NCBI GenBank assembly: GCA_017618515.1
Contig: JAFZUB010000117.1
Span: 1 to 18,368, forward strand
Direction of reading: 5' to 3'
Length of the DNA: 18,368 nt
Source: Bacteroidaceae bacterium
GTDB lineage: Bacteria; Bacteroidota; Bacteroidia; Bacteroidales; Bacteroidaceae
This document shows positions 4 to 16,586 of the stretch, piece after piece (the stretch's first letter is position 1; each line of letters opens with the position of its first letter). Below the pieces are notes generated by a model. It was given only the letters and a program-made list of their open reading frames with translations. It did not search any database and was not told where the DNA came from. The position numbers and the translations under genes were made by a program.

Positions 4-32
4 GATTTACGATTTTACGATTTACGATTTAC
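4..32. repeat. Heptamer array downstream of the ABC-F gene
   Basis: Four units of GATTTAC (one carries an extra T) lie at 4-10, 11-18, 19-25 and 26-32. Read on the minus strand, which is the coding strand of the adjacent ABC-F gene, the unit is TAAATCG and follows the stop codon at 42-40 after 8 bases. Together with the stop and the TAAATAA stretch it places TAA in all three frames. The array may continue beyond the window edge. It belongs to the same period-7 class as the arrays at 6293, 7987, 8734, 12382, 12917 and 14750. Confidence 0.8.
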
Positions 33-39
33 TATTTAT

Positions 40-1772: not shown

Positions 1773-2399
1773 ATGAAGATTATCGTAGCGGAAAACTCGC
1801 GCGCGAACAATAAATCGTGTGTTAGCGCGTTAGATATTATGCAGGCGTGTCCACGCATCTGGCTCAAGGCAGACTCAGCGCTGCTGACTCACGGCAAGCC
1901 GATGTTTAAGCCTGACTTCACTCGGGAGCTGAGTGCCGCGCCATATCTGGCACTGCGTATCAGCCGCATGGGCAAGAGTATTCCTGCCCGCTTTGCTCAT
2001 AGATATTATGACGCTGTGGGTGTGGCAGTGGACTTCACTGCCGAGGATGTGCTGAGGCAGCTGCGCTCGGAGGGTGAGCCCTGGGACATGGCCAAGAGCT
2101 TCGACGGCTCAGTGTGTCTGGGGGAGTGGCTTGAGTTAGGAGTTAGGAGTGAGGAGTTAGGAGTGAATGAAGTTAAACTCACGCTTCTCGTTGACGGCAC
2201 TGAACAGAGCACTCTGCCAATAAGTGACCTCAAGGCTGAGGCCGGCGAGATAATAGAGCAGGTGAGTGGCTTGTTCACTCTGAGGCAGGGCGACATACTG
2301 CTGATGGGCAAGCCTGAGCGGAAGCCTCTGGTGGAGATAGACAACCACATTGAGGGCATGATTAACGGCAGGCTGCTGACGAAGTTTAATGTGAAATAA
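1773..2399 (+). CDS. Fumarylacetoacetate hydrolase (FAH)-fold protein, probably degenerate
   Basis: 208 residues. Family recognition rests on the central block (FAHRYYD at 74-80, DFTAED at 87-92, K108-S-F-D) and the C-terminal block (LRQGDILLMGKP, 170-181), which match small FAH-family proteins I know from Bacteroides. FAH enzymes bind a divalent metal through E-x-E and a later Asp about 29 residues on. Here D87 is present, but the expected E-x-E position reads A56-P57-Y58, and the N-terminal RNY-type motif is replaced by AENSRANNK. A hydrolase or isomerase activity is therefore doubtful; it may be a pseudoenzyme. Residues about 121-132 are encoded by a heptamer array (2133-2167). It is the first gene of the run, 22 bases ahead of porU. 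No signal peptide, so probably cytoplasmic. Confidence 0.7.
   Translation: MKIIVAENSRANNKSCVSALDIMQACPRIWLKADSALLTHGKPMFKPDFTRELSAAPYLALRISRMGKSIPARFAHRYYDAVGVAVDFTAEDVLRQLRSEGEPWDMAKSFDGSVCLGEWLELGVRSEELGVNEVKLTLLVDGTEQSTLPISDLKAEAGEIIEQVSGLFTLRQGDILLMGKPERKPLVEIDNHIEGMINGRLLTKFNVK
2133..2167 (+). repeat. Heptamer array inside the FAH-fold coding sequence
   Basis: Five contiguous 7-base units, GAGTTAG or GAGTGAG with a final GAGTGAA, at 2133, 2140, 2147, 2154 and 2161. The reverse complement gives units such as CTCCTAA and CTCCTCA, the same family as the intergenic arrays at 8734 and 12917. It encodes ELGVRSEELGVN, an apparent insertion in a loop between the GEWL segment and the next beta strand (VKLTLLVDG). 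In this orientation the stop-bearing strand is antisense, so the frame stays open. Confidence 0.85.
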
Positions 2400-5400: not shown

Positions 5401-6267
5401 AGCTACGACCACATGCTGTTTGAGAGCAATGATTCTGTGAGGGGCGGCAACTTCAGCATGGTGATGCCCATTCCTCTTGACATCAAGTATACCAACGGTG
5501 AGGGAATGGTGAAGCTCTATGCTGTCAACTCTGACCTCTCGCTTGAAGCCAACGGCACTGACAAGCGCTTTACTGTCGGAGGCACCAGTGGTAGTTTGAC
5601 ACCAAGCACCGAGGGACCGAAGATATATGTATATCTCAACAATCCTGATTTCAAGAATGGCGAAGCGGTTAATCCTACGCCCTACTTCTACGCCAATCTG
5701 TCTGACTCTGACGGCATCAATATCACCGGCAATGGGGTAGGCCATGACCTGGAGCTCATCATCGACGGCAGAGAGGCTACATCTTATATCCTCAATCCTT
5801 ATTTTGAGAATGACTTTGGCAGCTATACCAGCGGCAAGGTGTCGTTTATGATCCCCGAGCTGCCTGACGGCGACCATCACCTATATTTCCGTGCATGGGA
5901 TGTGAAGAACAACTCGTCGGCCGTTTCGCTCGACTTTACCGTGGACGCCAGTATGAGGCCCCAACTCACCTCAGTGGCTCTGAGTGACAATCCTGCACAC
6001 ACCTCAACGACATTCCTTATAACCTACGACCGTCCCAACACAGAGACCACCTTCACCATTGATGTGTATAACCTCTATGGCCAGAAAGTGTGGACGCATA
6101 CCGAACGCACCGCTACTCCTACGGGCTACCACACCATCAAATGGGACCTCGCGTCCAACAACGGAATAGCTCTACGAGGCGGCCTGTATGTGTATAAAGT
6201 CACCATCAGTTGCAAAGACAGCAAGGAAAGCACTAAAAAACAAAAATTGATTATCCATAGGCAATAA
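2422..6267 (+). CDS. porU: Type IX secretion system sortase PorU
   Basis: 1281 residues, slightly longer than the P. gingivalis protein. PorU is the gingipain-family (C25) cysteine peptidase at the outer-membrane surface that removes the C-terminal sorting domain of T9SS cargo and joins the mature protein to its membrane anchor. Residues 1-28 form a signal peptide (A-W-A-Q cleavage), followed by a long beta-rich N-terminal region. The C25 domain runs from about 530 to 915 and includes VGIGRLPVRTADKA, NYTGHG with catalytic His778, ASC with catalytic Cys811, and GDPAMTL near its end. The C-terminal 90 residues form an Ig-like sorting domain (GGLYVYKV ... KQKLIIHRQ); in PorU this domain is known to be retained. 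It lies 50 bases ahead of porV, whose product docks PorU. An LAGC box (20-23) in the signal peptide is discussed as a finding. Confidence 0.95.
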   Translation: MNKSVLYKVRRATALALVMLAGCVAWAQSDNVFTHINWRGVSLDGDLPEFCKTIDLGPDYAKDGYDVTIEYPEFAEMTKAEAQLLNDDEGVIGENIKVETFLGVSRKVGMLDVKFVPIVKREGKYLKLLSCKINVTERGSAKAPLYGGGLKDTPSILTDDTPGYKSHSVLAKGKWVKIRVSKEGVYQLTPSFLRSLGFSDMSRVKVYGYGGRIQNDVVSYGSYLNSDYDDLEEVPLYRRSDALLFFAEGTVRWGNWVLANPSDEHGQCTATHLNNTYSSYSYYFVTEGDNPLRMTTLTSPETTSQTITTYPEHVIFDKDEYSWFTGGSTFYEDYDFANGNDRTINISTPDVDNSYVTTMSVTISSKSTKITNSQYYFNSKSLGSITMGSLTNEFDKATTGKRDFQLTNLTGTNALRITTTAGQSARLDYVKLCYRRKLKMMNDAMVFSHYSTRPSTMKLEGATDNTQVWRLGYPGNPVAHVEGTLSGSTLTFNVENPTLRYLAVNVNAAFPTPESAGAIVNQDLHADSLADMVIIIPESGKLREQAERLANIHRSHDSLRVKIVRADELYNEFSSGTPDAGAYKRYIKMLYDRNTAPDLPKYLLLFGSGVWDNRCLTEACRKLDPRDLLLCYESEASVSEINCFVCDDYFGFLDDGEGGNIRYDKVDVGIGRLPVRTADKAKILVDKIEKYIANKTPGSWKNTVCFMADDGDKQKHMIGAESVVQNVELKYPNLKVDRIYWDTFTRVATATGFTYPQVESTINTVMNKGALLMNYTGHGAPYCISKEMVLKTEDFKTFANTKVPMWVVASCEILPYDREEESIGSESMLNPNGAAIAFMSSARAVYSTQNSYINNYYIYYLFGKENGKRNTIGDAMRLAKVNLVSAMDGEIISARDYSENKLKYALIGDPAMTLTMPTQTVVLDSINGVSLKSGNLPNLSAGSKARFAGHIEDEDGNRLTGFNGRVTATLYDSQDTVTCRNNTNEDVEPLTYYSYDHMLFESNDSVRGGNFSMVMPIPLDIKYTNGEGMVKLYAVNSDLSLEANGTDKRFTVGGTSGSLTPSTEGPKIYVYLNNPDFKNGEAVNPTPYFYANLSDSDGINITGNGVGHDLELIIDGREATSYILNPYFENDFGSYTSGKVSFMIPELPDGDHHLYFRAWDVKNNSSAVSLDFTVDASMRPQLTSVALSDNPAHTSTTFLITYDRPNTETTFTIDVYNLYGQKVWTHTERTATPTGYHTIKWDLASNNGIALRGGLYVYKVTISCKDSKESTKKQKLIIHRQ

Positions 6268-6292
6268 ACAGCGAGTTTTTGAGTTTATAAAA

Positions 6293-6313
6293 TTACATCA
6301 TACATCTTATATT
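6293..6313 (+). repeat. Short heptamer array between porU and porV
   Basis: Three 7-base units, TTACATC, ATACATC and TTATATT, at 6293, 6300 and 6307, ending 4 bases before the porV start. TTACATC recurs exactly in the array at 14778-14784. With only three loosely related units this is the weakest member of the series. Confidence 0.5.
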
Positions 6314-6317
6314 ATCT

Positions 6318-7523
6318 ATGAAGAAACTGACTTATGCGCTCACAGCGCTGATGTTACTAATCTCTGCGGGCAGTCGCGCAGAGGATATCAAAGAAAAGTT
6401 TAACCCCGTGCAGACAGCCGTGGTGTCGCAGAGCATTGCTCCCGATGCACGTGCTGGCGGTATGGGTGATATAGGTGCCGCCACGGAGGCGGACATCAAC
6501 TCGCAGGCATGGAATGCCGCCAAGTATCCGTTTGCTATTTCCAAAGGTGGTGTAGCTATTAACTATACTCCCTGGTTGCGCCAGTTGGTTAACGACATCG
6601 ACCTTGCATACATGGCTGGCTACTATCGTCTGGGCGACTACCAGGCAATCAGTGGTTCACTGCGCTATTTCTCCCTGGGCGATGTGCTGGTTAACGGTAT
6701 GGAAAACACTACCATTAAGCCTTATGAACTTGCCGTTGATGCAGCCTACAGCCGCATGCTGAGTGAGAAATTTGCTGCTGCCGTAACCTTCCGCTATATC
6801 TACTCGGACCTCAGCGGCAAGACCGACGATGGCTCAAAGCCGGGCTCTGCATTTGCTGCCGACCTTGCTGCCTATTATAATACATATTTAAATGTAGGTA
6901 GCCGCGAGTGCCAGTTGAGCATTGGTGGTGGTATATTCAACCTCGGTAGTAAGATAAACTACGGCGACGACTACTCCTATTTCATTCCTACCACACTGCG
7001 ACTGGGCTTCAACTACACTGTGCCTATCAACGAGTTTAACCGCATCTCCTTTGCAGCTGATGCCAACAAGTTGCTTGTGCCTACTTATCCCACTGACGCA
7101 CAGTGCGCCAAGAAACTTGGTTACGAAACCACCGATGGTCAGGACCATACCGCCGAATATCAGAAGTATCGTGAGGAGCATTACTACAACATATCCTCCA
7201 TTTCCGGTGTGTTTAAGAGTTTCAACGATGCGCCCAACGGCTTCTCCGAGGAGCTCGAGGAGATACAGTGGTCGCTCGGTATGGAGTATGTGTACAACGA
7301 CAAGTTTGCTCTCCGTGCCGGTTATCACCACGAGGCGGACACCAAGGGTGGACGCAAATACTTCACCGTGGGTGCTGGTTTCAAGATGAGCGTATTCTCT
7401 ATTGACGCGGGCTATGTAATCTCTACTGCGGCCGCCAATCCTCTTGACCAGACACTGCGTGTGTCACTGGGCTTTGATCTCGACGGCATACAAGATCTCT
7501 TCAACCGCGGAAGACGCAGATAA
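6318..7523 (+). CDS. porV: Type IX secretion outer-membrane shuttle protein PorV (LptO)
   Basis: 401 residues. PorV is a FadL-like 14-strand outer-membrane barrel that collects T9SS substrates from the SprA translocon by their C-terminal domain and delivers them to PorU. Seen here: a signal peptide with cleavage after SRA (residue 21), then VSQSIAPDARAGGMGDIGAATEADINS (split 36-49 and 50-62), the hallmark N-terminal segment of PorV, and a beta-barrel pattern of alternating aromatic/hydrophobic strands to the end. The length is close to the P. gingivalis protein. Immediate linkage to porU upstream and ispF 3 bases downstream matches the P. gingivalis gene order as I recall it, which supports the assignment. 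The C-terminus ends in RGRRR instead of an aromatic residue. Confidence 0.93.
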   Translation: MKKLTYALTALMLLISAGSRAEDIKEKFNPVQTAVVSQSIAPDARAGGMGDIGAATEADINSQAWNAAKYPFAISKGGVAINYTPWLRQLVNDIDLAYMAGYYRLGDYQAISGSLRYFSLGDVLVNGMENTTIKPYELAVDAAYSRMLSEKFAAAVTFRYIYSDLSGKTDDGSKPGSAFAADLAAYYNTYLNVGSRECQLSIGGGIFNLGSKINYGDDYSYFIPTTLRLGFNYTVPINEFNRISFAADANKLLVPTYPTDAQCAKKLGYETTDGQDHTAEYQKYREEHYYNISSISGVFKSFNDAPNGFSEELEEIQWSLGMEYVYNDKFALRAGYHHEADTKGGRKYFTVGAGFKMSVFSIDAGYVISTAAANPLDQTLRVSLGFDLDGIQDLFNRGRRR

Positions 7524-7526
7524 AAT

Positions 7527-8003
7527 ATGCGCATAGGTTTTGGGTATGATGTACACCGCATAGTGGCTGACCGCGAGCTATGGCTCGGGGGCATCAAGTT
7601 TGACACAGACTTCGGCCTGCAGGGTCACAGCGATGCCGATGTACTTATCCATGCTATATGCGACGCACTTCTGGGTGCGGCTTGTCTGCGCGACATAGGC
7701 TATCATTTCCCTGACACCGACCCGCAGTATAAGGGAATCGACAGCAAGCGTCTCCTAGCAGAGGTGATAAGCCTGCTTCGCGAGCATGGCTACACCGTGG
7801 GCAACATCGACTCCACCATCATCTGCGAGCAACCGAAAATCAATCCTCACATTCCTGAGATGCAGGCATGCCTTGCAGAGATAATGCAAGTGCCTGTGGA
7901 CTGCGTCTCTATCAAGGCCACTACCACAGAGCATCTGGGCTTTACTGGTCGCGGTGAGGGCATCGCCGCCCAGGCTGTGGCATTGATAACCAATAACCTC
8001 TAA
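7527..8003 (+). CDS. ispF: 2-C-methyl-D-erythritol 2,4-cyclodiphosphate synthase
   Basis: 158 residues, the usual length. It converts 4-diphosphocytidyl-2-C-methyl-D-erythritol 2-phosphate to the 2,4-cyclodiphosphate with release of CMP in the non-mevalonate (MEP) isoprenoid pathway; the enzyme is a cytoplasmic trimer. The zinc ligands D8, H10 and H42 fall at the same residue numbers as in the E. coli enzyme (GYDVHR, HAICDALLGA), D56 is present, and the C-terminal TTTEHLGFTGRGEGIAAQA segment is typical. It starts 3 bases after the porV stop, so translation is probably coupled. The last five residues (ITNNL) and the stop codon are encoded by the start of a heptamer array (7987-8028), so the extreme C-terminus is repeat-derived. 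Confidence 0.96.
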   Translation: MRIGFGYDVHRIVADRELWLGGIKFDTDFGLQGHSDADVLIHAICDALLGAACLRDIGYHFPDTDPQYKGIDSKRLLAEVISLLREHGYTVGNIDSTIICEQPKINPHIPEMQACLAEIMQVPVDCVSIKATTTEHLGFTGRGEGIAAQAVALITNNL

Positions 8004-8028
8004 CCAATAACCTTTAACCTTTAATATA
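7987..8028 (+). repeat. Heptamer array, TAACCNN type, between ispF and the aquaporin gene
   Basis: Six contiguous 7-base units begin at 7987, 7994, 8001, 8008, 8015 and 8022. The first five fit TAACCNN (TAACCAA twice, TAACCTT twice, TAACCTC once) and the last is TAATATA. The third unit supplies the ispF stop codon (8001-8003). Because 7 is 1 modulo 3, the array carries TAA in every frame. It ends 9 bases before the next ATG. Confidence 0.92.
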
Positions 8029-8037
8029 CCAATTACA

Positions 8038-8736
8038 ATGAAAAAGTATTTAGCTGAAATGGTGGGTACATTCGTTTTGACCCTCCTGGGCTGCGGCACT
8101 GCCGTAAGTCTTAACTGCGGCTTAGACACCGCATCTGTTGTTGGCACTGCCATGGCATTTGGCCTTGCCGTTGTAGCTATGGCCTACACCATTGGTGGCG
8201 TAAGCGGTTGCCACATCAACCCCGCTATCACCGTGGGCTGCCTTCTCTCCAAGCGTATCAGCGTTAAGGATGCTGTGGGCTACATTGTGTTCCAGGTAAT
8301 CGGCGCCATCATCGCCGCTGCTGTCCTCTATGCTATCACCAGTGTGACTACTACTGAGTTTGGCGGCACTCTCACCGGTGCCAACAGTTGTGCAGGTGCT
8401 GGCAGCCAGTTGGCAGGCTTCATCGTTGAGGCTGTGCTCACCTTCATCTTCGTGCTTGTAGTGCTCGGCACTACCGACAGCAAGAAGGGCGCTGGCCAGT
8501 TCGCAGGCCTCGCTATTGGTCTCAGCCTTGTGCTCATCCACTTGGTAGGCATCCACTACACTGGCACTTCTGTTAACCCCGCTCGTTCTATCGGCCCCGC
8601 CATCTTCGAGGGTGGCCAGGCTATGACAGACCTCTGGGTGTTCATCGTGGCTCCCATTGTAGGCGCTATCGTTGCTGCCATCGTATGGTGCATCATCGGC
8701 ACTTGCTGCTGCAAGGATGAGTGCAAAAAAGATTAA
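8038..8736 (+). CDS. aqpZ: Aquaporin, AqpZ-like water channel
   Basis: 232 residues, a normal length for a MIP-family channel of the inner membrane with six membrane helices and two half-helices. Both NPA motifs are intact (N61-A63 in GCHINPAIT and N180-A182 in SVNPARS). Residues matching the AqpZ selectivity filter are F41, H168, T177 and R183, which points to a water-selective pore and away from glycerol facilitation; peroxide passage is possible but cannot be read from sequence. The cytosolic tail is odd: five cysteines among the last 15 residues (C218, C223-C225, C229) followed by Lys/Asp. It sits between ispF and rubrerythrin, 18 bases ahead of the latter, so co-transcription is likely. 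Confidence 0.93.
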   Translation: MKKYLAEMVGTFVLTLLGCGTAVSLNCGLDTASVVGTAMAFGLAVVAMAYTIGGVSGCHINPAITVGCLLSKRISVKDAVGYIVFQVIGAIIAAAVLYAITSVTTTEFGGTLTGANSCAGAGSQLAGFIVEAVLTFIFVLVVLGTTDSKKGAGQFAGLAIGLSLVLIHLVGIHYTGTSVNPARSIGPAIFEGGQAMTDLWVFIVAPIVGAIVAAIVWCIIGTCCCKDECKKD

Positions 8737-8754
8737 CTCCTAACGACTAACTCT
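8734..8754 (+). repeat. Heptamer array forming the whole aquaporin-rubrerythrin spacer
   Basis: Exactly three 7-base units, TAACTCC, TAACGAC and TAACTCT, at 8734, 8741 and 8748. The first begins with the aquaporin stop codon and the last abuts the rubrerythrin ATG at 8755, so the spacer contains nothing else. TAA occurs once in each reading frame. The TAACTCC unit is the reverse complement of the one embedded in the FAH-fold gene at 2133. Confidence 0.85.
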
Positions 8755-9297
8755 ATGAAGGATCTTAAAGGAACAAAGACTGAGCAGAACCTGATGACCG
8801 CCTTCGCTGGTGAGTCACAGGCTCGCAACAAGTACACCTACTATGCCTCCAAGGCTAAGAAGGACGGCTATGTTCAGATCGCCAATCTCTTTGAGGAGAC
8901 TGCCGCCAATGAGAAGGAGCACGCTAAGATATGGTTTAAGCTCCTCCACGGCGGGGGCATACCTTCCACTGAAGAGAATCTTAAAGACGCTGCCGCTGGC
9001 GAGAACTATGAGTGGACAGACATGTACGCTCAGTTTGCCCGTGAGGCTCGCGAGGAGGGATTCGATGATATAGCCGACAAGTTTGAGATGGTAGGTGCCA
9101 TCGAGAAGCATCATGAGGAGCGTTACCTCAAGCTGCTCGACAATCTGCAGAAGAAAGTCGTCTTCACCAAGGACGGCGACTGCATCTGGCAGTGCTCCAA
9201 CTGCGGCCACATAGTAGTGGGCAAGCAGGCTCCCGAGCTTTGTCCAGTGTGCGACCATCCGCAGAGCTTCTTCCAGCTGCTGGCTCAGAACTATTGA
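8755..9297 (+). CDS. rbr: Rubrerythrin
   Basis: 180 residues, a typical length. Rubrerythrin is a cytoplasmic NADH-dependent peroxidase system component that reduces hydrogen peroxide in anaerobes. The N-terminal ferritin-like four-helix domain holds the diiron ligands E20 (GES), E53-x-x-H56 and E117-x-x-H120. The C-terminal rubredoxin-like domain has its Fe(Cys)4 site at C147-x-x-C150 and C163-x-x-C166 (CSNCGH and CPVCDH). An extra cysteine, C143, precedes the site. It is the last gene of the run that starts at 1773, followed by a strong terminator, and is tightly linked to the aquaporin gene. Oxidative-stress control (for example by OxyR) is known for Bacteroides rubrerythrins, but no operator is visible here. 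Confidence 0.96.
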
Positions 9298-9322
9298 TGT
9301 CGCAGCCCGACAGCCATACACT

Positions 9323-9368
9323 AAAGCGTGGGTCTCTTTACAGTGAGAGGCTCACGCTTTTGCTTTTT
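9323..9368 (+). terminator. Intrinsic terminator after rubrerythrin
   Basis: An 8-base arm AAAGCGTG (9323-9330) pairs with CACGCTTT (9353-9360). An inner TCTC (9333-9336) pairs with GAGA (9345-9348) across a small internal loop. T runs at 9358-9361 and 9364-9368 follow. It closes the 1773-9297 run. No gene converges from the other side. Confidence 0.85.
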
Positions 9369-9485
9369 CTTGTTTTCTGGTGAAATAATTAACAAATCAA
9401 ATGCTAATATGGGGGTAAATCTATAAAAATTCTTAAAGAAAGTAATTATTTGGCCTTTAAACATTTTATATTATTATATAATGTC

Positions 9486-9493
9486 TAACTTTG
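9486..9493 (+). promoter_or_regulatory. Candidate -7 box in the A/T-rich leader before the W/Y-rich protein gene
   Basis: TAACTTTG fits TAnnTTTG exactly. The implied transcription start near 9500 gives a leader of about 20 bases to the ATG at 9520. No TTTG is found 19-21 bases upstream; only a TTTT at 9464-9467, so the -33 element is weak. The rest of the gene-free stretch 9298-9519 holds the terminator (9323-9368) and strongly A/T-rich sequence with nothing else I recognise. Confidence 0.6.
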
Positions 9494-9519
9494 CATCGTC
9501 AACGTAAATATATTGCGCT

Positions 9520-10755
9520 ATGAAAACATCCGTACTTTTTCTTGGTTTGGCTATTCTGCTGCCTATGGCGGCGAATGCGCAGGACGATGTGTACTACATC
9601 CCCTCAAAGGACATCCGCAAGGTAACCACCACTGACGGCACCCTTGTCCCCACAGAAAACATTGCCGACAAGGCACAGTATTATGAGGAGACAAGAGATG
9701 TTGATGACTACAACCGTCGTGGTAGCGTTATCACAGATACTGTGGGCTATGAAAGCGAAGAGGTAACAAGAACCGTTGAGAGCACGTTTGATGACAGTTC
9801 CGACGATGTGGCATACCCCTACACCAAGCTTGTGATGCGTTTCCATAGCCCTCATGTGGGCTACATCGTGAGCAGCCCATACTATTGGGATATATGCTAC
9901 GGCGATGTGTGGGACGTTTATTACGATGGCTGGGCAGCCTATGTGCCGAGCTACACCTATTGGAGCTACACCTATGACCCGTGGTACTACAACCGCTGGC
10001 ATTTCCGCACCTGCTGGGACTTTACCTGGGGGTGGTATGACCCGTGGTATTACCGTTCCTACTGGGGCTGGGGCCGCCCGATTTATTGGGGCTGGAGCCG
10101 TCCCTACTACTATCATCATCACCACTACTACAGCCGTCCCGCATGGGGCCGTGGCTACAGTCGCTATGCTCCTGGCTTCGGTCATCATGGCGGTCGCGCC
10201 TTCGCAGGCCGCGGTATGGACAGGCCTCGTGCAGACTTCGGTGGCAGGATAGGCGGTGGTCGTTCAGGTGTTGGCGCACCCACACGTGGTGCAGGCAGTC
10301 GTCCTCTCTCTGGAGTGTTCCGCTCTAGTCGTGAGCCGGTTTCACATGCTAGCGCTCAGATGAGCCGTGGCACACGCCATACTGGTCCCAACTCCGTAAT
10401 GCGCAGCGACAATATCTCTCGCAACGGCGGCGGTGGTGTATCGCGTGGCGGACGTATCACTCCGGGCAATGCTGACCGTCAGCGTTCCAGCCAGGTACAG
10501 CGTCGCCCCGATGTCAGCCGCTCTCCCTCGACTGTCAATCGCAGCGAGAGCCGTCCGAGCACCCGCTCGTCTGTTCCCTCTAGCGTAGGACGTAGCAGTG
10601 GTAGCAGCAGCCGTCCTTCCGGTGGCTTTGGTGGCGGCGGCAGCATAGGTCGCAGTTCATCACCCTCTCATAGCGGCGGCGGTGGAGTCTCCCACGGCGG
10701 TGGCGGTGGTGGCTCACGTGGCGGCGGCGGAGTATCCCGCGGTGGTCGCAGATAG
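9520..10755 (+). CDS. Exported protein with W/Y-rich core and Gly/Ser/Arg-rich tail, function unknown
   Basis: 411 residues in four parts. Residues 1-20 are a signal peptide cut after ANA before Q21. Residues 21-100 are acidic and polar. Residues 101-208 are extremely aromatic, with YDPWYY at 152-157 and again at 173-178 (period 21) and a run of four His at 199-202. Residues 209-411 are basic, disordered-looking, rich in Gly, Ser and Arg, and include GGGGVSRGGR at 303-312 and 401-410 with a variant at 386-395. No enzyme motif is seen. Similar aromatic then glycine-rich proteins occur in Bacteroidales as hypothetical proteins, as I recall. The composition suggests a surface-coating, polyanion-binding or scaffold role, but that is inference. 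It is the first gene of a new block, with its own candidate promoter. Confidence 0.85.
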   Translation: MKTSVLFLGLAILLPMAANAQDDVYYIPSKDIRKVTTTDGTLVPTENIADKAQYYEETRDVDDYNRRGSVITDTVGYESEEVTRTVESTFDDSSDDVAYPYTKLVMRFHSPHVGYIVSSPYYWDICYGDVWDVYYDGWAAYVPSYTYWSYTYDPWYYNRWHFRTCWDFTWGWYDPWYYRSYWGWGRPIYWGWSRPYYYHHHHYYSRPAWGRGYSRYAPGFGHHGGRAFAGRGMDRPRADFGGRIGGGRSGVGAPTRGAGSRPLSGVFRSSREPVSHASAQMSRGTRHTGPNSVMRSDNISRNGGGGVSRGGRITPGNADRQRSSQVQRRPDVSRSPSTVNRSESRPSTRSSVPSSVGRSSGSSSRPSGGFGGGGSIGRSSSPSHSGGGGVSHGGGGGGSRGGGGVSRGGRR

Positions 10756-10781
10756 CATATCATTTTCTTCTTACGCATAGG

Positions 10782-10813
10782 GAGGCGGGGCGCAGCCTCG
10801 TCTCTCATTTTTT
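10782..10813 (+). terminator. Possible weak terminator or attenuator
   Basis: GAGGC (10782-10786) and GCCTC (10795-10799) form a short hairpin with an 8-base loop; a six-T run follows at 10808-10813 after an 8-base gap. The gap makes it a poor classical terminator. It could lower read-through from the abundant-looking W/Y-rich gene into the barrel gene downstream. Confidence 0.35.
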
Positions 10814-10814
10814 C

Positions 10815-10846
10815 AACTCTATCACTCTCGAACTTTCCAACTCTTT
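10815..10846 (+). repeat. Octamer array before the outer-membrane barrel gene
   Basis: Four contiguous 8-base units, AACTCTAT, CACTCTCG, AACTTTCC and AACTCTTT, at 10815, 10823, 10831 and 10839, fit the loose consensus MACTYTNN. The array ends 5 bases before the ATG at 10852. It resembles the heptamer arrays in base content and placement but has a period of 8. Confidence 0.6.
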
Positions 10847-10851
10847 ATATT

Positions 10852-12384
10852 ATGAAAAAACTTTTCCTCGCATTAGTACTGGCTCCTGCTCTTACATTTG
10901 CCCAGGACCTCTATCAGGTGGCCGAGCTCAGCGCTACCGACCTTAATGGTACTGCACGCTACGTCGGTATGGGTGGAGCCATGAGCTCCCTCGGAGGCGA
11001 CCTCTCGGTGATGTCGTCCAATCCCGCTGCCATAGGCCTTTATCGTCGCAGCGACGTGGCAGCCACGGCAAGCCTAGTCACCATGCCCGGCAGCCATAAG
11101 TTTGACGGCGACAAGCCTACCTACGTATCTTTCGACCAGATAGGCTTCGTGTGTTCCATCCCCAGTGGTGGCAACAGCCTGCGCTATATCAACTTTGGTG
11201 TAAACTACCACAAACACCACGATTTCAATCAGCTACTCAATGCTGACAACGACCTTGCTGCCGCAGGCTATGCCTCGCAGACATGGCAACTGGCCGACCT
11301 CTGCAACAGCTGGGGTGGGGTGGACAATGCTACTCCGCTGGCTGACATGGCTTACTCGGCATACTTGCTGGGCGAAGATGGTGGCGAATACACAGCCTAC
11401 AACGCTGCCGACAATGCTTACGGCAAATCGCGCAGCGGTAGCAATCAGGCCATTGATTTCAACATATCCACTAATATCAAGGACCAGTTCTATCTCGGTC
11501 TCACCGTCACGGGCTACAATGTAAGGCAGAAGAGCTACATGGCCTACGGCGAGGATCTGCTTACCGCAGATCTTGCTGATGATGGCTACTACTTGATGGA
11601 TAATGAGAGTAAGCTCACCGGTAATGGTGTTGATGTGAAGTTTGGCTTCCTCGTGCGCCCCATACAGGAGAGCAACTTCAAGATTGGTGTCACACTTGCT
11701 ACTCCCACCTTTTATAGGCTCACCTATCGCAACGACCTGTTGCTGGGTTCCTACACTGATAGTTACGGTGAGGTAGAGCCGCGCGGCTACTACTTCGACT
11801 ACGACTACAACGTTCGCACTCCGTGGAAGGTAGGCGTAAGTTTGGGCAACACATTCTTCAATCGTCTGGCAGTCGGTGCCGAGTATGAGTTTGCCGACTA
11901 TAGTTCCTGCTCCGTCTCCTACGATGACGACTATTGGGATGACTGGGATTGGGGCCACCAGACTAAGGACCGCGAGCTTAACAAGCAGCTCGACAACTAC
12001 CTCAAGGGTACTCACACTCTCAAGTTCGGTGCAGAGCTGATGGTAACTCCAAATGTTTACCTCCGTGGCGGATACAACCATGTTACCTCTGCCATCAAGA
12101 AGGACGCATGGCTCAACCATTTCATCAACAGCGCGTCTGTTGACGTAGCAACCAACACCGACTACCTCAACCTTGGCGGCATCAACCGCTACACGGCTGG
12201 CATAGGCCTTAAGTTCGGCAAGTTCTATGCCGACGCCACATGGCTCTACCAGCACCAGCGTGGCACCCTCTATGCTTTCAATGCTCCCGAAGACCCTGCT
12301 GTGCCGGAGATTAACGCATGTCCCGCCAATCGTGTCAGCCTCAACCGCTCCCAGGTGATGCTGACTATGGGATACCGTTTCTAA
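10852..12384 (+). CDS. Outer-membrane barrel protein, OmpP1/FadL/TodX-like
   Basis: 510 residues. A signal peptide ends at TFA (residue 17) before Q18. The segment RYVGMGGAMSSLGGD (36-50) followed by SSNPAAIGLYRRSD (55-68) is the FadL/OmpP1-type hatch region, and the protein ends in an aromatic residue (GYRF), as expected for an outer-membrane beta barrel recognised by the BAM complex. Proteins of this kind carry hydrophobic small molecules or have receptor-like roles; in Bacteroidales they are often labelled OmpP1 or hemin receptor without proof. It shares the G-G-M/A style N-terminal segment with PorV in the same window but is longer. An unusual acidic aromatic stretch (DDDYWDDWDWG) probably lies in an extracellular loop. 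The next gene starts 19 bases on. The substrate is unknown. Confidence 0.8.
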   Translation: MKKLFLALVLAPALTFAQDLYQVAELSATDLNGTARYVGMGGAMSSLGGDLSVMSSNPAAIGLYRRSDVAATASLVTMPGSHKFDGDKPTYVSFDQIGFVCSIPSGGNSLRYINFGVNYHKHHDFNQLLNADNDLAAAGYASQTWQLADLCNSWGGVDNATPLADMAYSAYLLGEDGGEYTAYNAADNAYGKSRSGSNQAIDFNISTNIKDQFYLGLTVTGYNVRQKSYMAYGEDLLTADLADDGYYLMDNESKLTGNGVDVKFGFLVRPIQESNFKIGVTLATPTFYRLTYRNDLLLGSYTDSYGEVEPRGYYFDYDYNVRTPWKVGVSLGNTFFNRLAVGAEYEFADYSSCSVSYDDDYWDDWDWGHQTKDRELNKQLDNYLKGTHTLKFGAELMVTPNVYLRGGYNHVTSAIKKDAWLNHFINSASVDVATNTDYLNLGGINRYTAGIGLKFGKFYADATWLYQHQRGTLYAFNAPEDPAVPEINACPANRVSLNRSQVMLTMGYRF

Positions 12385-12402
12385 CCTCTAATCCCATGAC
12401 CC
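12382..12402 (+). repeat. Short heptamer spacer after the barrel gene
   Basis: Units TAACCTC (12382), TAATCCC (12389) and ATGACCC (12396) start with the stop codon of the barrel gene and reach to within one base of the next ATG at 12404. TAACCTC also occurs in the array at 7994. Only two of the three units fit TAANCNC-like sequence, so on its own this would not be convincing. Confidence 0.45.
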
Positions 12403-12403
12403 C

Positions 12404-12919
12404 ATGAAAAAGACAATCCTTTTCTATTCTCTATTCTCTCTTTTCTGTTCTCTGACCTTTACGGTCAGTGCCCAGAAGATAGCCAACACTTTTTGGGATA
12501 GCAAATTTGGAGTCACCAGTGAGGAGGTGTACAACAATCTCCTTGCTGCGGGGTTGGAGCCCATCGTCAGTGATGATGCCATCTATCTGCAGGATAACGT
12601 AGTGTTCAGCATTCCCTTCCATACTATTGGCTTCAAGTTCACCACCGAGGATGCCTTCTACAATGTCTTCGGATACACTAAGTTCACTGCTAAGCAGGAT
12701 GCCTTCAATTTCTTTGACGATGCCTATGCCAAGGTGCGTGAGCAGTACCCCAACATTCAGACCATGAGTCGCACCGAGGGAGTCGTAAAACTCTACGCCT
12801 ATGCCGATGCTGATAGTGGCGACGCCTTCTCCATCGGGCTATATAAGGGCAACGGGGCCTACTTCGTGCGCCTCAACATATTCAGCGACTACCTCTTGAA
12901 GCGCGAAAAGAAGAACTAA
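12404..12919 (+). CDS. Small exported protein of unknown function
   Basis: 171 residues. A clear signal peptide is present, with a lysine pair, a hydrophobic core to about residue 20 and cleavage after VSA (residue 23) before Q24, so the mature protein is periplasmic or surface-facing. The mature part is about 148 residues, mixed alpha/beta in appearance, with two F/Y-rich segments (FKFTTEDAFYNVFGYTKF and NFFDDAYAKV) and a lysine-rich end. There are no cysteines after the signal peptide, no transmembrane helix and no motif I recognise. It sits between the FadL-like barrel and the ABC exporter with gaps of 19 and 33 bases, so an envelope role linked to them is plausible but unproven. Confidence 0.8.
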   Translation: MKKTILFYSLFSLFCSLTFTVSAQKIANTFWDSKFGVTSEEVYNNLLAAGLEPIVSDDAIYLQDNVVFSIPFHTIGFKFTTEDAFYNVFGYTKFTAKQDAFNFFDDAYAKVREQYPNIQTMSRTEGVVKLYAYADADSGDAFSIGLYKGNGAYFVRLNIFSDYLLKREKKN

Positions 12920-12951
12920 CCCCTCACTCCTCACTCCTCACTCAGAACTCC
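12917..12951 (+). repeat. Heptamer array between the small exported protein and the ABC exporter
   Basis: Five 7-base units run from the stop codon (12917-12919): TAACCCC, TCACTCC twice, TCACTCA and GAACTCC. TCACTCC is a rotation of CTCCTCA, the antisense unit of the array inside the FAH-fold gene. The array ends two bases ahead of the TTG start at 12953, and no ATG follows it. Confidence 0.88.
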
Positions 12952-12952
12952 G

Positions 12953-14743
12953 TTGTCTCTCATAAAGCTATTCCGTAAGCTCTGGCCTTTTGTAAAGCCC
13001 TACAGATGGCTCGTGGCCTGCACATTGGTGCTCACCCTCCTTGGTTCCACCATTGCGCAGGTCAATGCCATTGTGCTTGACCGCACTGTCGATGCAATCA
13101 ACTCGCTTGTTATGAGCGGTGGCCTCAGTTGGCGGCGTGCTTCAGGCATCCTTGTGGTCATCACCATTGTGCTACTGGGCAAGGAGTTGCTTGCTGTCGT
13201 CATCTCCTATGCCCAGAATTTCTTTGGCGAGAAGATACGCACCTTTGTGTCTCGTGACCTCGCCCAGCGAGCTGTTGACCGCATTCTTAGCTATCGCATG
13301 GCCTTCTTCTCGCGCAGCGGCAATGAGGCGGGCAAACTACAGACGCGCATCGATCAAGGTGTGGGCAGTCTCTCCACCACGGTACAGAACACGTTTATCG
13401 ACCTCTTGCCCTTGTTCACATCGGCGCTGCTGGCATTGATACTTATGTTTCTCGCCAATTTCTACGTGGGACTCACAGCCTCCGTCATTGTGCCCGTCTA
13501 TATCTATATCACTGTGCGGCAGGCACGTCGCCTTAAAGGCTGGCGTCAGCAGATGCGTTCCTACCGCGAGCAGAAGAGCCACGGCATAGTCAATATCATC
13601 GAGAGCATCAATGTCATCAAGTCGTTCAACCGTGAGCGCATAGAGAGCGACAAGCAGCTCAATATACAGACGCAGCTCACCGACAATCAGCTGCGTACCC
13701 GCAAGGTGATGCTTTACTTCGACGGTTGGAAGCGCTTCGTGCAGCAGATGGGCACCGTGCTCATCATCATTCTTACCGCCTATCTGGTGCTCATCAACTA
13801 TCCCGGCATGACTATCGGTAAGATAATGTACCACGTCATGCTCTTTGCCAATGTCACCGCACCCATCACTCAGTTGCAGCGTATTTTCGACACTCTTAAC
13901 GACGCTCTCATCTACGCCGAGGGCTATTTCTCCGTCATCGAGTCGGAGCCCGATGTTGAGGCCACCGGCACCTACCGCCCCGAACATATCGAGGGCAAAC
14001 TGGAGCTACAGCACGTCGATTTCACCTATCCCAATGGCACACACGCCCTCCACGACATCAATATGGTCATCGAGCCCAACCATATCACTGCCTTCGTGGG
14101 ACTCAGCGGTGCAGGCAAATCGACCATCATCAATCTGCTCGACAAGTTCTACGCGCCGCAACAGGGGCGCATCCTCCTCGACGGCGTTGACCTGCAGGAC
14201 TATGACACCCAGTATCTGCGTGACCATATCGGTCTCGTGCTGCAGAAGAACCATATCTTTGACGGCACCATCATGGAGAACATACGCTACGGCAACCCCC
14301 ACGCCACCGACCAAGAGGTGGAGGACGCTGCCCGCAAGGCGTATATCTACGACCAGGTGATTCAGTTGCCCAATGGCTTCCAGTCGCAGGCGTCGCAGCT
14401 CAGCGGCGGCCAGCAGCAGCGCATAGCCATCGCCCGCATGTTTCTCAAGAATCCCCCCATCATCTTCCTCGACGAGCCCACCGCCTCCCTCGATGCTGTT
14501 GCCACCGAGCAGATTAAGAATAGTCTCGATGCCATCAAGCAGGGGCGTACCGTTATTATCATTTCCCATTCCATCTCACAGATTATCGACAGCGACATGG
14601 TCTATGCCCTACGCGAGGGCAGGGTAGAGCAGAGCGGCGATCCCGACGGCCTCTACCGCAAGGGCGGCGTCTATAAGGACATCGTCGATGCCTCGGCGCG
14701 CAGCCTCAATGTCGATAAGCTTGCCAAGACCATTTCACATTAG
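12953..14743 (+). CDS. ABC exporter half-transporter (fused membrane and ATPase domains)
   Basis: 596 residues. The N-terminal half is a type-1 exporter membrane domain with about six hydrophobic segments (near 18-45, 60-85, 145-190 and 255-305). The C-terminal half is the ATPase: Walker A GLSGAGKS at 383-390, signature LSGGQ at 483-487, Walker B IIFLDEP at 503-509 with E508 intact, and H-loop H539. All ATPase motifs are canonical, so a homodimer with two working sites is expected, similar in layout to MsbA. The substrate (lipid, peptide or drug) cannot be told. Translation is taken to start at TTG 12953, since that frame opens at the upstream stop and the first in-frame ATG comes well inside the membrane domain. 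The 3' end overlaps the next gene. Neighbours are exported proteins. Confidence 0.9.
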   Translation: MSLIKLFRKLWPFVKPYRWLVACTLVLTLLGSTIAQVNAIVLDRTVDAINSLVMSGGLSWRRASGILVVITIVLLGKELLAVVISYAQNFFGEKIRTFVSRDLAQRAVDRILSYRMAFFSRSGNEAGKLQTRIDQGVGSLSTTVQNTFIDLLPLFTSALLALILMFLANFYVGLTASVIVPVYIYITVRQARRLKGWRQQMRSYREQKSHGIVNIIESINVIKSFNRERIESDKQLNIQTQLTDNQLRTRKVMLYFDGWKRFVQQMGTVLIIILTAYLVLINYPGMTIGKIMYHVMLFANVTAPITQLQRIFDTLNDALIYAEGYFSVIESEPDVEATGTYRPEHIEGKLELQHVDFTYPNGTHALHDINMVIEPNHITAFVGLSGAGKSTIINLLDKFYAPQQGRILLDGVDLQDYDTQYLRDHIGLVLQKNHIFDGTIMENIRYGNPHATDQEVEDAARKAYIYDQVIQLPNGFQSQASQLSGGQQQRIAIARMFLKNPPIIFLDEPTASLDAVATEQIKNSLDAIKQGRTVIIISHSISQIIDSDMVYALREGRVEQSGDPDGLYRKGGVYKDIVDASARSLNVDKLAKTISH

Positions 14744-16586
14744 TCATCCTCACATCTTACATTTTAAATCTCACATATTACATCTCACATCCCTGCTGCT
14801 CATAGGCATTGCAAATGCAGCCTTTGCTCAGGAGACAGACATCATGTCCGACACATGGGTTGCTACCGATGCTTTGGGACGTGTGATGCCTGATGCCGAC
14901 GAGTCTCCTTTGCGTACCGACAAGCCGCGCACCGTAGGAATTTTCTATATCACATGGCACGACGAGGCAAAGCATAATTGGAAGGCTCCCTATGGTGGCG
15001 ATGTCACACGCACACTGCAGGAAGCTCCCGAGGCACGGCTTGACGCTTTCCACCCTGCTTGGAAAGAGTGGAGTCTTCACTGGGGCGAGCCCGAGGCAGG
15101 CTACTTCCTCAGCCAGGACCGCTGGCTCATCCGGCGCGATCTGTCGATGTTGGCGGATGCAGGTGTTGATGTGCTCATTCTTGACGTCACCAATGCTGTG
15201 CTCTATTGGGATGAGTGGACGGTGCTCTTCGATGAGATGCAAAAGATGCGTGCCTTGGGCAACCGCGTACCACGGTTTTGTTTCTGGGCGTTCAATGGCA
15301 ATGTAGTTAGTGTTGTCACCCAACTCTACGAGCGTATATATAAAGAGGGGCGCGCGAAGGATTTCTGGTTCCAATGGGAGGGCAAGCCTCTGCTGCTTTA
15401 TAACGCCGAGCCTGACCACGATGCCAACGGAGGAGGCTACGACGCTGGCACCTATCCGCAGGAGATACGCGACTTCTTTACCCTCCGCAATATGTGGTGG
15501 GGGTACTATGAGTGGGGTGGTCATCGTTATGTGGGCACCGAGGACAATTGGAGTTTCGGCTATGAGATGAACGATGAGCGTGTGGCAACTATGAAGCCTG
15601 CCGAACTAGCTTCGCGCCATAAAGGCCGTCTGGAGGAGATGGCTGTCACCCCCGCCCAGCATCCCATCATCATCACTGGCAAGAGCTGGCGGCGTGAGAC
15701 CAAGGAGCCACCCCTCAATCAATACGACATGCCCGACTCCGCATACGTGCCCTGGCTCGGGCGCACTGTGGCACACCCCGAGGGCTACGGCATCTACTTC
15801 CAGGACCGTTGGGACGAGGCACTCGCCGTTGATCCCGACTTCATCTATATCAACGACTGGAACGAGTGGACGGCAGGCAAATATATCTCTGGCTACGCAC
15901 CTGGCAGCACTACTGTTCCAGGGCCGACCACCTTCCTTGGACGCGAGAATCCCTTCTACTTCGTAGACCAGTATAATGCAGAGTTCAACCGCAGCATACA
16001 GCCCATGCGCGGTGGCTACACCGATAACTACTATATGCAGATGGTGCAGAACATCCGTCGCTACAAAGGAGTACGCCCTCAGCCCGTCACACGCGGCTAC
16101 AACACTGCCGCCCGCTATTTCGACACCAGAGGCGATGTCCTCCATCGCGATCACAACGGCTACGGAGGCCTCCATTACGCGGACTCCACGGGGCGCAACG
16201 ACATCATCGAGGCTACCGTCAGTGTCACCCGCAAGGACATCATCTTTACTGTCACCCTGTCCCCTCACACTTCACCCTCCTTGCCGCTATTATATCTTGA
16301 CATCGATTGCGACATGTCCACAGGGTGGGAAGGGTTTGATTATATGGTAAGTGATGGTAAGTTATTCTCTCTCCCCTTGAGTGGAGAGGCGGGAATAGAT
16401 TGCAAGGAGGGCATATGCTCCCTCACCATTCCCCGCAAGGCTCTAGGCCTTACATCTAAAGCCTTTACCTTCGACTTCAAGTGGGCTGACAATCCCACCG
16501 ACCCATTCGACATCATCTCCATATCCACCACCGGCGACACAGCCCCCAACCGCCGTTTCCGTTATCGTTTTCACTGGGCCAGATAA
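14709..16586 (+). CDS. Exported GH99/WbsX-clan-like protein, probable polysaccharide-active
   Basis: 625 residues from ATG 14709. An alternative ATG at 14688 would add seven residues, and both overlap the ABC exporter gene. Residues 1-40 form an unusual signal peptide: a long His-rich n-region encoded by a heptamer array, then LLLIGIANAAFA before Q41. Residues about 75-420 look like a TIM-barrel of the GH71/GH99 type: GIFYITWHDEAKH near 77-89, VDVLILDVTNAV, and DWNEWTAG at 383-390. GH99 enzymes carry catalytic Glu in N-E-W-x-E; here E386 is kept while the second position is A389. The C-terminal part (from about 470) resembles a CBM9/DOMON-like beta sandwich (YLDIDCDMSTGWEGFDY). It probably acts on host or plant glycans or has lost catalysis. 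Family assignment is tentative. Confidence 0.75.
   Translation: MSISLPRPFHISHPHILHFKSHILHLTSLLLIGIANAAFAQETDIMSDTWVATDALGRVMPDADESPLRTDKPRTVGIFYITWHDEAKHNWKAPYGGDVTRTLQEAPEARLDAFHPAWKEWSLHWGEPEAGYFLSQDRWLIRRDLSMLADAGVDVLILDVTNAVLYWDEWTVLFDEMQKMRALGNRVPRFCFWAFNGNVVSVVTQLYERIYKEGRAKDFWFQWEGKPLLLYNAEPDHDANGGGYDAGTYPQEIRDFFTLRNMWWGYYEWGGHRYVGTEDNWSFGYEMNDERVATMKPAELASRHKGRLEEMAVTPAQHPIIITGKSWRRETKEPPLNQYDMPDSAYVPWLGRTVAHPEGYGIYFQDRWDEALAVDPDFIYINDWNEWTAGKYISGYAPGSTTVPGPTTFLGRENPFYFVDQYNAEFNRSIQPMRGGYTDNYYMQMVQNIRRYKGVRPQPVTRGYNTAARYFDTRGDVLHRDHNGYGGLHYADSTGRNDIIEATVSVTRKDIIFTVTLSPHTSPSLPLLYLDIDCDMSTGWEGFDYMVSDGKLFSLPLSGEAGIDCKEGICSLTIPRKALGLTSKAFTFDFKWADNPTDPFDIISISTTGDTAPNRRFRYRFHWAR
14750..14791 (+). 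repeat. Heptamer array translated as a signal-peptide n-region
   Basis: Six contiguous 7-base units begin at 14750, 14757, 14764, 14771, 14778 and 14785: TCACATM three times, TTACATY twice and TTAAATC once. Three units span 21 bases, so the in-frame translation repeats the tetrapeptide HILH. The array starts six bases after the ABC exporter stop codon and is open in the frame of the following gene. Confidence 0.9.

Follow-up and report, generated by a model that had tools for sequence, protein, structure and literature searches.

Heptanucleotide tandem arrays at gene edges in Bacteroidaceae genomes: probable products of a lineage-specific process with a 7-base step

Heptamer repeats are prevalent long simple repeats in many bacteria and have no accepted cause. 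Among them are the short tandemly repeated repetitive (STRR) sequences of heterocystous cyanobacteria, whose likeness to the arrays reported here lies in the 7-base period, the units being different. Rickettsia palindromic elements are hairpins of about 100 bp found in frame in protein genes and also between genes; unlike them, the inserted thing here is usually a heptamer array, with hairpins as a second layer. In the available parts of two further accounts, TAACTGA direct repeats were described in marine Beggiatoaceae, Cyanobacteria and five Bacteroidetes genomes (MacGregor 2015, PMC4679880), and GGGAATC or GGGGA(C/T)T heptamers in Xanthomonas and Nostoc (Rehm 2015, PMC4692102). Here we analysed period-7 tandem arrays in an 18,368-nucleotide stretch of a Bacteroidaceae bacterium (GCA_017618515.1, contig JAFZUB010000117.1; hereafter the window), in which an earlier note had pointed to such arrays, and in its relatives. 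Probably (about 0.6) the arrays come from a mutational and copying process that is peculiar to the lineage and moves in steps of 7 bases, and they are tolerated at gene edges.

The arrays resemble the TAACTGA repeats in their 7-base unit, in being patchy among relatives and in having copies within genes. As far as the available part of that account goes (PMC4679880), the repeats of the main genome are mostly intergenic near starts, 13 sets overlap an upstream stop codon, one Flexibacter set is reversed after a stop, Microcystis carries a mixed range of heptamers, and between two Cyanothece strains the sets differ chiefly by 7-nt indels, all of which are likenesses to the arrays here. Unlike that main genome, in which repeats of related heptamers are rare beside one prevailing unit, we found 59 distinct cyclic consensus units among 243 period-7 arrays, and TAACTGA was not among these 59. 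In forward orientation TAACTGA is closed by stops in every frame, and 25 proteins of that main genome contain or overlap the repeats, compared with 89 coding arrays in 2.25 Mb here. The Rehm heptamers, likewise in the part of the account available (PMC4692102), share the 7-base unit and a mainly intergenic, gene-proximal location, some occurring as paired inverted repeats; a general association with mobile elements was not found for them. Their unit is G-quadruplex-prone, whereas here a run of at least three G or C occurs in 5 of the 59 units and the common units are without it.

Because in-gene copies, stop-codon overlap, heptamer mixtures and 7-nt strain indels are already reported for TAACTGA repeats (PMC4679880), the arrays here are no new class. 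They belong to the broad heptanucleotide simple sequence repeats of bacteria, as 7-base tandem arrays above chance genome-wide. The earlier note had cited heptanucleotide repeats from cyanobacteria only, and on this point it is corrected by the TAACTGA repeats of the five Bacteroidetes genomes. The open-licence literature searched contained no description of arrays like these from this bacterial group. Four features do not appear in the available parts of the two accounts (PMC4679880, PMC4692102): a swap of units at one and the same orthologous junction, in-frame coding arrays on this scale, shared composite blocks and in-phase hairpins.

The genome-wide scan was made on relatives and covered 2,246,830 bases, drawn from eight related genomes and the window, with arrays of at least three copies counted (G and L numbers below denote genomes and loci). 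Genes were called by a home-made caller (codon log-odds), so that starts are uncertain; the array-free background C/G counts and the codirectional C-rich/G-rich counts come from an older, cruder caller, whose array counts are superseded. Stretches of G001, G005, G174 and G187 were picked partly from contigs with TAACTCC matches, and array density there is therefore inflated; G002, G003, G004 and G006 (1.11 Mb) were sampled by contig number or length only, regardless of repeat matches. The control sets comprised 300 kb from G170 and ten other family members.

Period 7 dominated the intergenic spectrum with 154 arrays, and period 8 was the runner-up with 44. The other periods gave 1 (period 4), 1 (5), 11 (6), 15 (9), 13 (10), 1 (11), 2 (12), 0 (13) and 31 arrays (14, a multiple of 7). 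In coding DNA there were 89 period-7 arrays, with 12, 2, 9, 12, 1, 3 and 6 arrays at periods 4, 5, 6, 8, 9, 12 and 14. Shuffled junctions yielded at most 0.3 period-7 arrays per shuffle set in any genome, the control sets contained 1, and the hit-independent sample (G002, G003, G004 and G006) held 59 intergenic and 34 coding ones. Chance, which the earlier note had judged insufficient, is thus ruled out by the scan in relatives, and the outcome named there as refuting, a junction signal that does not exceed shuffled intergenic DNA, did not occur. Arrays also extend beyond the junctions, with 89 of them in coding DNA. Since coding arrays occur besides the intergenic ones, the period cannot stem from a need for spacers, and nothing apart from position favoured the suggestion that arrays are kept as such. 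The period 7 dominates coding DNA although selection there favours 6 or 9, the multiples of three, which argues that the period is set by how the arrays are made, that is, by machinery.

A 21-base super-period was considered and rejected: intergenic autocorrelation is equal at lags 21 and 7, partly due to separate 21- and 22-bp tandem repeats without an internal period of 7. These repeats (e.g. AATCTAATCGCGCCGAAACGA and the palindromic TTTTCTTAGTTAAGAAAAGAAT) are dispersed over many junctions, with loci at L067, L072, L078, L079, L081 and L165 in G004 and at L039 and L042 in G001.

The units form a genome-specific vocabulary. Two intergenic arrays shared the same cyclic unit in 5.7-10.6% of cases within a genome and in 2.6-3.7% between genomes, compared with 0.21% for random intergenic 7-mers; unit recurrence within a genome is 27-51 times that of random 7-mers, the units differ by genome, and the within-genome excess was matched in none of 300 label shuffles. 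The motif T[AC]A[AC] is present in 81% of the distinct units and in 35% of random intergenic 7-mers, a comparison that is descriptive only. Doubled TMACTCC was found in 32 of 201 family genomes, with 1 to 203 matches each. Doubled TAACTCC had 65, 10, 3, 74, 84 and 0 matches in G001 to G006 (reversed control 11, 4, 1, 0, 1 and 4), and the GGTCAAT unit (GGTCAATGGTCAATGG) had 38, 39, 1, 28, 16 and 49 in the same genomes and 0 in ten others, with a control of 0 everywhere. These unequal counts across genomes point to a patchy phenomenon with a separate history for each unit.

Larger blocks are also shared within genomes. Junctions sharing at least 35 bp with another numbered 149 of 414 in G001, 146 of 400 in G004 and 33 of 128 in G005. 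Many pairs sharing a stretch have no array (490 of 787 in G001, 1317 of 1728 in G004 and 75 of 241 in G005), so dispersed repeats are generally common in these three genomes. One G005 block of 123 bp (93.5% identity), which carries a heptamer array, an octamer array and their spacer, occurs at two places, and such blocks with two arrays and a spacer are hard to obtain by local slippage. The recurrent genome-specific units and the shared array-bearing blocks together bear out the copying component that had been suggested beside slippage for this DNA.

In the window the arrays lie among genes for an ABC-F ATPase, an FAA-hydrolase, a C25 peptidase with a CHU_C match (porU-like), PorV, ispF, an aquaporin, a rubrerythrin, an ABC transporter and others. 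Sites were tested by Tandem Repeats Finder (TRF) and by lag-wise first-order Markov shuffles of each stretch, with intervals chosen with hindsight. They are as follows.

4 to 38, minus strand: GATTTAC (TTTACGA) in 4.9 copies, where the minus-strand ABC-F gene has its 3' end; lag-7 p 0.003
2133 to 2164, plus strand: GAGTTAG/GAGTGAG, 4.6 copies, in frame within the FAA-hydrolase gene (1773-2399); lag-7 p 0.0005
6294 to 6314, plus strand: degenerate TTACATC ATACATC TTATATT, weak, between porU and porV; p 0.023 for 6290-6312
7987 to 8024, plus strand: TAACCAA TAACCTC TAACCAA TAACCTT TAACCTT, between ispF and the aquaporin gene; lag-7 p 0.0005 (7986)
8734 to 8754, plus strand: TAACTCC TAACGAC TAACTCT, beginning with the aquaporin stop codon and ending flush with the rubrerythrin ATG; p 0.065 (8732-8754), weak alone
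10813 to 10844, plus strand: four in-phase octamers TCAACTCT ATCACTCT CGAACTTT CCAACTCT, 5' of a 510-aa gene; lag-8 p 0.0145 (10805-10851)
12382 to 12395, plus strand: TAACCTC TAATCCC, weak, beginning on the stop codon of the 510-aa gene; p 0.054 (12380-12403)
12423 to 12453, plus strand: TCTATTC array within the signal-peptide codons of a 171-aa gene; p 0.0025
12917 to 12951, plus strand: TAACCCC TCACTCC TCACTCC TCACTCA GAACTCC, in phase, from the stop of the 171-aa gene (12917-12919) to the TTG of the ABC transporter gene (12953); lag-7 p 0.0005
14744 to 14791, plus strand: degenerate TCACATC/TTACATC, 3' of the ABC gene and into the N-terminal codons of the next open reading frame (ORF); p 0.001

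TRF reported period-7 rows at 4-38, 2133-2164, 7986-8012/7994-8024, 12423-12453, 12922-12943 and 14749-14791. Lag 7 was the best of lags 4-12 at every site that the earlier note had named except 10815, where lag 8 was best (p 0.0145), as its octamer reading had it. Its sites at 4-38, 2133, 7986, 12917 and 14744 are strong (p <=0.003), and those at 6293, 8734 and 12382 are short and individually weak (p 0.023-0.065); over the whole porU/porV junction (6268-6317) the lag-7 signal was non-significant (p 0.14, shuffle test). The array at 12423 was absent from that note. Recurrence of TTACATC and of TAACCTC at distant sites can be seen directly in the sequence. Three control stretches showed no lag-7 signal (p 0.24-0.85), and one of them (9298-9519) had a lag-8 p of 0.007.

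The arrays are closely fitted to gene ends. At 8001, 8734, 12382 and 12917 the TAA stop codon forms bases 1-3 of the unit; at 7987-8024 the array supplies the last ispF codons, the stop codon lying at 8001-8003. As had been observed, arrays can occupy an entire stop-to-start gap: at 8734-8754 and at 12917-12951 (one base left over) exactly phased units take up the whole stretch between a stop and the start that follows it.

The orthologous junctions showed turnover. A PorV scan gave 26 loci, of which the nearest, L001-L003, are from Bacteroidaceae metagenome-assembled genomes of goat and yak rumen according to the record titles. Nucleotide identity over the region syntenic with the window was about 90% for L001, 87% for L002 and 82% for L003, then about 77% for L004 and 75% for L005. 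The comparison with close relatives that the earlier note had proposed found the genes kept and the units often swapped or the array absent.

Between ispF and the aquaporin gene the window has TAACCNN units, L001 about six TAATTCC units with a TAACC part, and L004 TAAACAATAACC blocks around a hairpin-like insert; L002 and L003 have no heptamer array there. The five TCACTCC-type units between the 171-aa and ABC transporter genes (171/ABC) correspond to a stop touching the start in L001 (TAA followed by ATG) and L003 (TAG followed by ATG), to a gap of 3 bases in L005 and to a hairpin-like insert in L002. The porV/ispF junction was judged by eye in 27 sequences (the caller missed ispF in ten loci). 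Compact gaps were found there, of 3 bases in the window, L002 and L025 and with a 4-base overlap in L016, as were gaps that unrelated heptamers occupy completely between stop and start: TAATTTC-like ones in L001, ATTAAAC in L020, TTGATAA in L021 and ATTAAAG in L022 and L024. The repeats of L003 and L004 are mixed, and plain spacers occur in others. The ABC-F end carries GGAATTA/GGAGTTA in L001 and the octamer GATTTTAC in L002, and the region upstream of the 510-aa gene has octamers TTCAATTT/TTCAATTC in L001. The array region also alters the ispF C-terminus, which ends ALITNNL in the window, ALINS in L001, ALIN in L002 and L003, and ALINNKQ in L004. The FAA-hydrolase array, an in-frame insertion, is common to the window and L001 (one residue longer in L001), and was absent from the DNA of L002-L006 and the protein of L007-L008.

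Plain replication slippage at each site, with 7-base growth from a local seed and with coding and intergenic copies as unrelated events, is on this evidence an unlikely explanation. Local seeds are indeed visible at some sites, e.g. the TTAAA copies surrounding the porV stop of L020, L022 and L024, and polymerase slippage was proposed in the survey of Mrazek (2007), as cited in the available parts of PMC4679880 and PMC4692102, in which heptamers were the commonest long simple repeats in most genomes; the two Cyanothece strains differing mainly by 7-nt indels also fit it (PMC4679880, in the part available). Against slippage, the 171/ABC and FAA-hydrolase sites bear a unit common in the sister genome G001, and the empty sites of the relatives are without that unit, a choice of unit that slippage from a local seed leaves unexplained. 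The 27-51-fold recurrence of units that differ between genomes and the two-array blocks with spacer shared between places are equally contrary to it, and stepwise growth by 7 bases within genes would have to pass through frameshifts.

Within genes the arrays encode heptapeptide repeats, e.g. ELGVRSE, NGQWSMV and NSQFSIL, and such heptads make the arrays a source of new protein segments as well as of rapid change in untranslated gene ends. We compared 91 coding arrays with orthologs, keeping one alignment per array (the first passing), some pairs being counted from both sides. For 37 arrays an ortholog spanned the site: 19 were in-frame insertions, 12 were of equal length (including the window FAA-hydrolase array, so scored because its partner L001 has it too) and 6 were shorter. 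Coding arrays had 2.50 of 3 frames open in sense (at least 1 by definition) and 0.57 of 3 in antisense, and 51 of the 144 intergenic arrays of at least 26 nt had no open frame at all. From these statistics the arrays seem to land widely and to survive where the frame permits. In a 3.5-kb gene of G001 (L027:1173-4689), GVRSEEL repeats are encoded by two long in-frame arrays of 132 and 187 bp, in which the unit variants return every third unit and the frame thereby stays open.

The intergenic arrays lie at a median of 11 bp from the gene border, compared with 35 bp for random placement in the same junction. Polarity was scored where one border was within 30 bp and the other more than 60 bp away, dropping arrays with equal C and G, and 87 of the 208 intergenic period-7 and period-8 arrays qualified. 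The C-rich strand ran into the near gene in 68 (inward) and outward in 19 (p 1.2e-7). The inward to outward ratio was 33:11 near starts, where the coding strand is C-rich, and 35:8 near stops, where it is G-rich. By genome it was 33:1 in G004, 9:0 in G005, 4:0 in G174 (5:0 with more DNA, all near starts), 2:1 in G006, and 1:0 in each of G003 and the window. Octamers alone gave 6:5 near starts, i.e. no polarity, and 5:1 near stops. The TAACTGA repeats are mostly forward before starts in their main genome (PMC4679880, available part); near starts the arrays here stand at 33:11 overall, G001 being unbiased overall. In two xanthomonads and Nostoc the G strand of the Rehm heptamers is non-coding before starts and coding after stops (PMC4692102, available part), which is the same polarity as in G004, G005 and G174 and is not seen in G001, G002 or G187.

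Several simple causes and rules of orientation were tried and rejected. Stop codons do not account for it, because it holds for units with stops on both strands (10:1 near stops and 14:2 near starts), nor do start codons, because units whose two strands are both free of them show it too (12:3 and 17:4). Gene direction alone does not orient the arrays, as codirectional period-7 arrays were C-rich on the coding strand in 26 cases and G-rich in 19, without a clear bias. Genes flanked by matching inverted arrays are not the rule either: 13 of 39 pairs had an equal unit (4.3 expected), but only 11 of 39 had opposed orientation. A polarity rule for all bacteria has against it the Microcystis sample, which has no forward preference, with 6 repeats forward and 8 reverse to starts (PMC4679880, available part); the polarity is therefore a lead and no general law.

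A regulatory or translational function, in which the arrays would be protein- or ribosome-binding leaders or unstructured re-initiation spacers, could draw on this flush position and on the orientation before starts (33:11) and after stops (35:8), and for the TAACTGA repeats a part in translation has been suggested (PMC4679880, available part). We consider it improbable. Orthologous junctions between the same genes have no array or another unit or period, 89 period-7 arrays lie in coding DNA, and G001 has no orientation bias. Before starts, even array-free DNA favours C (C 4372, G 3291), as the arrays do; after stops it is slightly C-rich (C 4517, G 4118) and so runs counter to them. L002 and L003 manage without several of the window arrays, their genomes having few doubled TAACTCC (10 and 3). 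A regulatory function is unnecessary to account for the data.

Hairpin elements occur within some arrays. One from G004, about 80 bp long (ATGCCGAAGGCAT...GAAGCGGCA), is embedded in arrays of various units; the unit found before it carries on in phase after it, without target duplication. We set the borders by eye, partly from the same copies, and scored only complete copies with full flanks (from 26 G004 and 16 G001 matches). Of 14 complete G004 copies, 6 scored at least 0.85, compared with 1.6% of permuted flanks and reached in 0 of 1000 permutations; the other eight did not. A second family (A) in G001 was in phase more weakly, in 3 of 13 copies compared with 12.8% of permuted flanks (5 of 1000 permutations). 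In copies of this kind, flanked by one unit in unbroken phase and lacking a target-site duplication, the array probably predates the element and served as the acceptor site.

The arrays could alternatively be parts or scars of such hairpin elements, either miniature inverted-repeat transposable element (MITE)-like or IS200/IS605-like, that carry or create heptamers. The in-phase hairpins and the dispersed composite blocks agree with this, and the 6 of 14 G004 copies share insertion without target-site duplication with IS200/IS605 or REP/RAYT elements. As an origin of the arrays it is nevertheless doubtful, since in the in-phase cases the array would most likely have preceded the hairpin, CCAAG follows within 18 nt after only 16 of 46 TTTGA-type arrays in G004, and no Y1 transposase was found in G002-G005, genomes that may be incomplete. 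No RNA family identity was obtained, as six sources gave no hit to Rfam at gathering thresholds, and no sign of a phage origin, with no megablast match of 6200-14900 in phage records.

The process that we consider probable is supported by the period spectrum, the genome-specific vocabulary, the junction turnover, the shared blocks and the in-frame insertions. It would run continually, reiterating short stretches in tandem with a natural step of 7 and less often 8 bases, a step that may come from the replication or repair machinery and not from selection. Blocks containing arrays would be copied elsewhere within the same genome, and new arrays might be seeded from existing ones by template switching or ectopic recombination at array microhomology, then gain or lose length by slippage. 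Arrays would persist where harm is small, flush with stops or starts, or in genes where the strand and variant are stop-free, and may turn into acceptor sites for hairpin elements. The unit swapping and the in-frame block insertions render the process visible, and testable by strain comparison.

A number of observations speak against this process. One genome per species was compared, hence no parent-daughter event lies within the data; most of the 27 porV/ispF sequences have no array, and 18 of the 37 comparable coding sites show no net insertion. The xanthomonad heptamer repeats are 83% in the same place between two species (PMC4692102, available part), unlike the turnover here. Neither polarity nor flush placement would be expected of a purely neutral process that lacks a polar step; polarity itself was absent in G001 (18:14) and reversed, at small counts, in G002 (0:2) and G187 (0:1). 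Candidate machinery did not track the arrays in genomes that may be incomplete: reverse transcriptase (PF00078) was found in 4 of 17 genomes, Y1 transposase (PF01797) in 3 of 17 (2 above the cut-off, one being G001), Ku in 0 of 15 and a MutS domain in 15 of 17. The reverse-transcriptase genes are single ones at G001:C30, G006:C122, G007:C155 and G024:C40, unlinked to array abundance.

A bolder reading casts the arrays as substrate for a DNA copying system so far unrecognised, in which phase-locked 7-base blocks would be pasted from place to place (in genes as multiples of 21 bases, giving heptapeptide repeats), with fixed polarity to the nearest gene end in some genomes, and would serve as landing pads for in-phase hairpins. 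If so, the like polarity of the Xanthomonas and Nostoc heptamers, of other sequence, would indicate one general 7-base-step mechanism. We hold this reading to be rather doubtful, its odds being lowered by the 6:8 orientation in Microcystis.

Some minor observations concern individual sites. The start of the ABC transporter gene is TTG at 12953 after the array in the window, and ATG in L001, L002, L003 and L005. At 14709-14830, in the 632-aa ORF next to it, a hydrophobic signal core lies directly 3' of the array, with no ATG between the array and the core; N-terminal codons of this ORF, or its start, may have been lost under the array. The junction of the 411-aa and 510-aa genes contains at 10780-10806 a G+C-rich sequence, GGGAGGCGGGGCGCAGCCTCGTCTCTC, almost preserved in L001, L002 and L003, which is perhaps a terminator. 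In G004 a module, CCAAGTCCGG, comes after heptamer arrays of several units (L068, L069, L074, L082, L086, L149, L151 and L160); TTAG or TTAA precedes 18 of the 23 copies listed, and the array and module are duplicated together at L069 (9241/9313). The same module was found in six G005 junctions, counted with one extra A.

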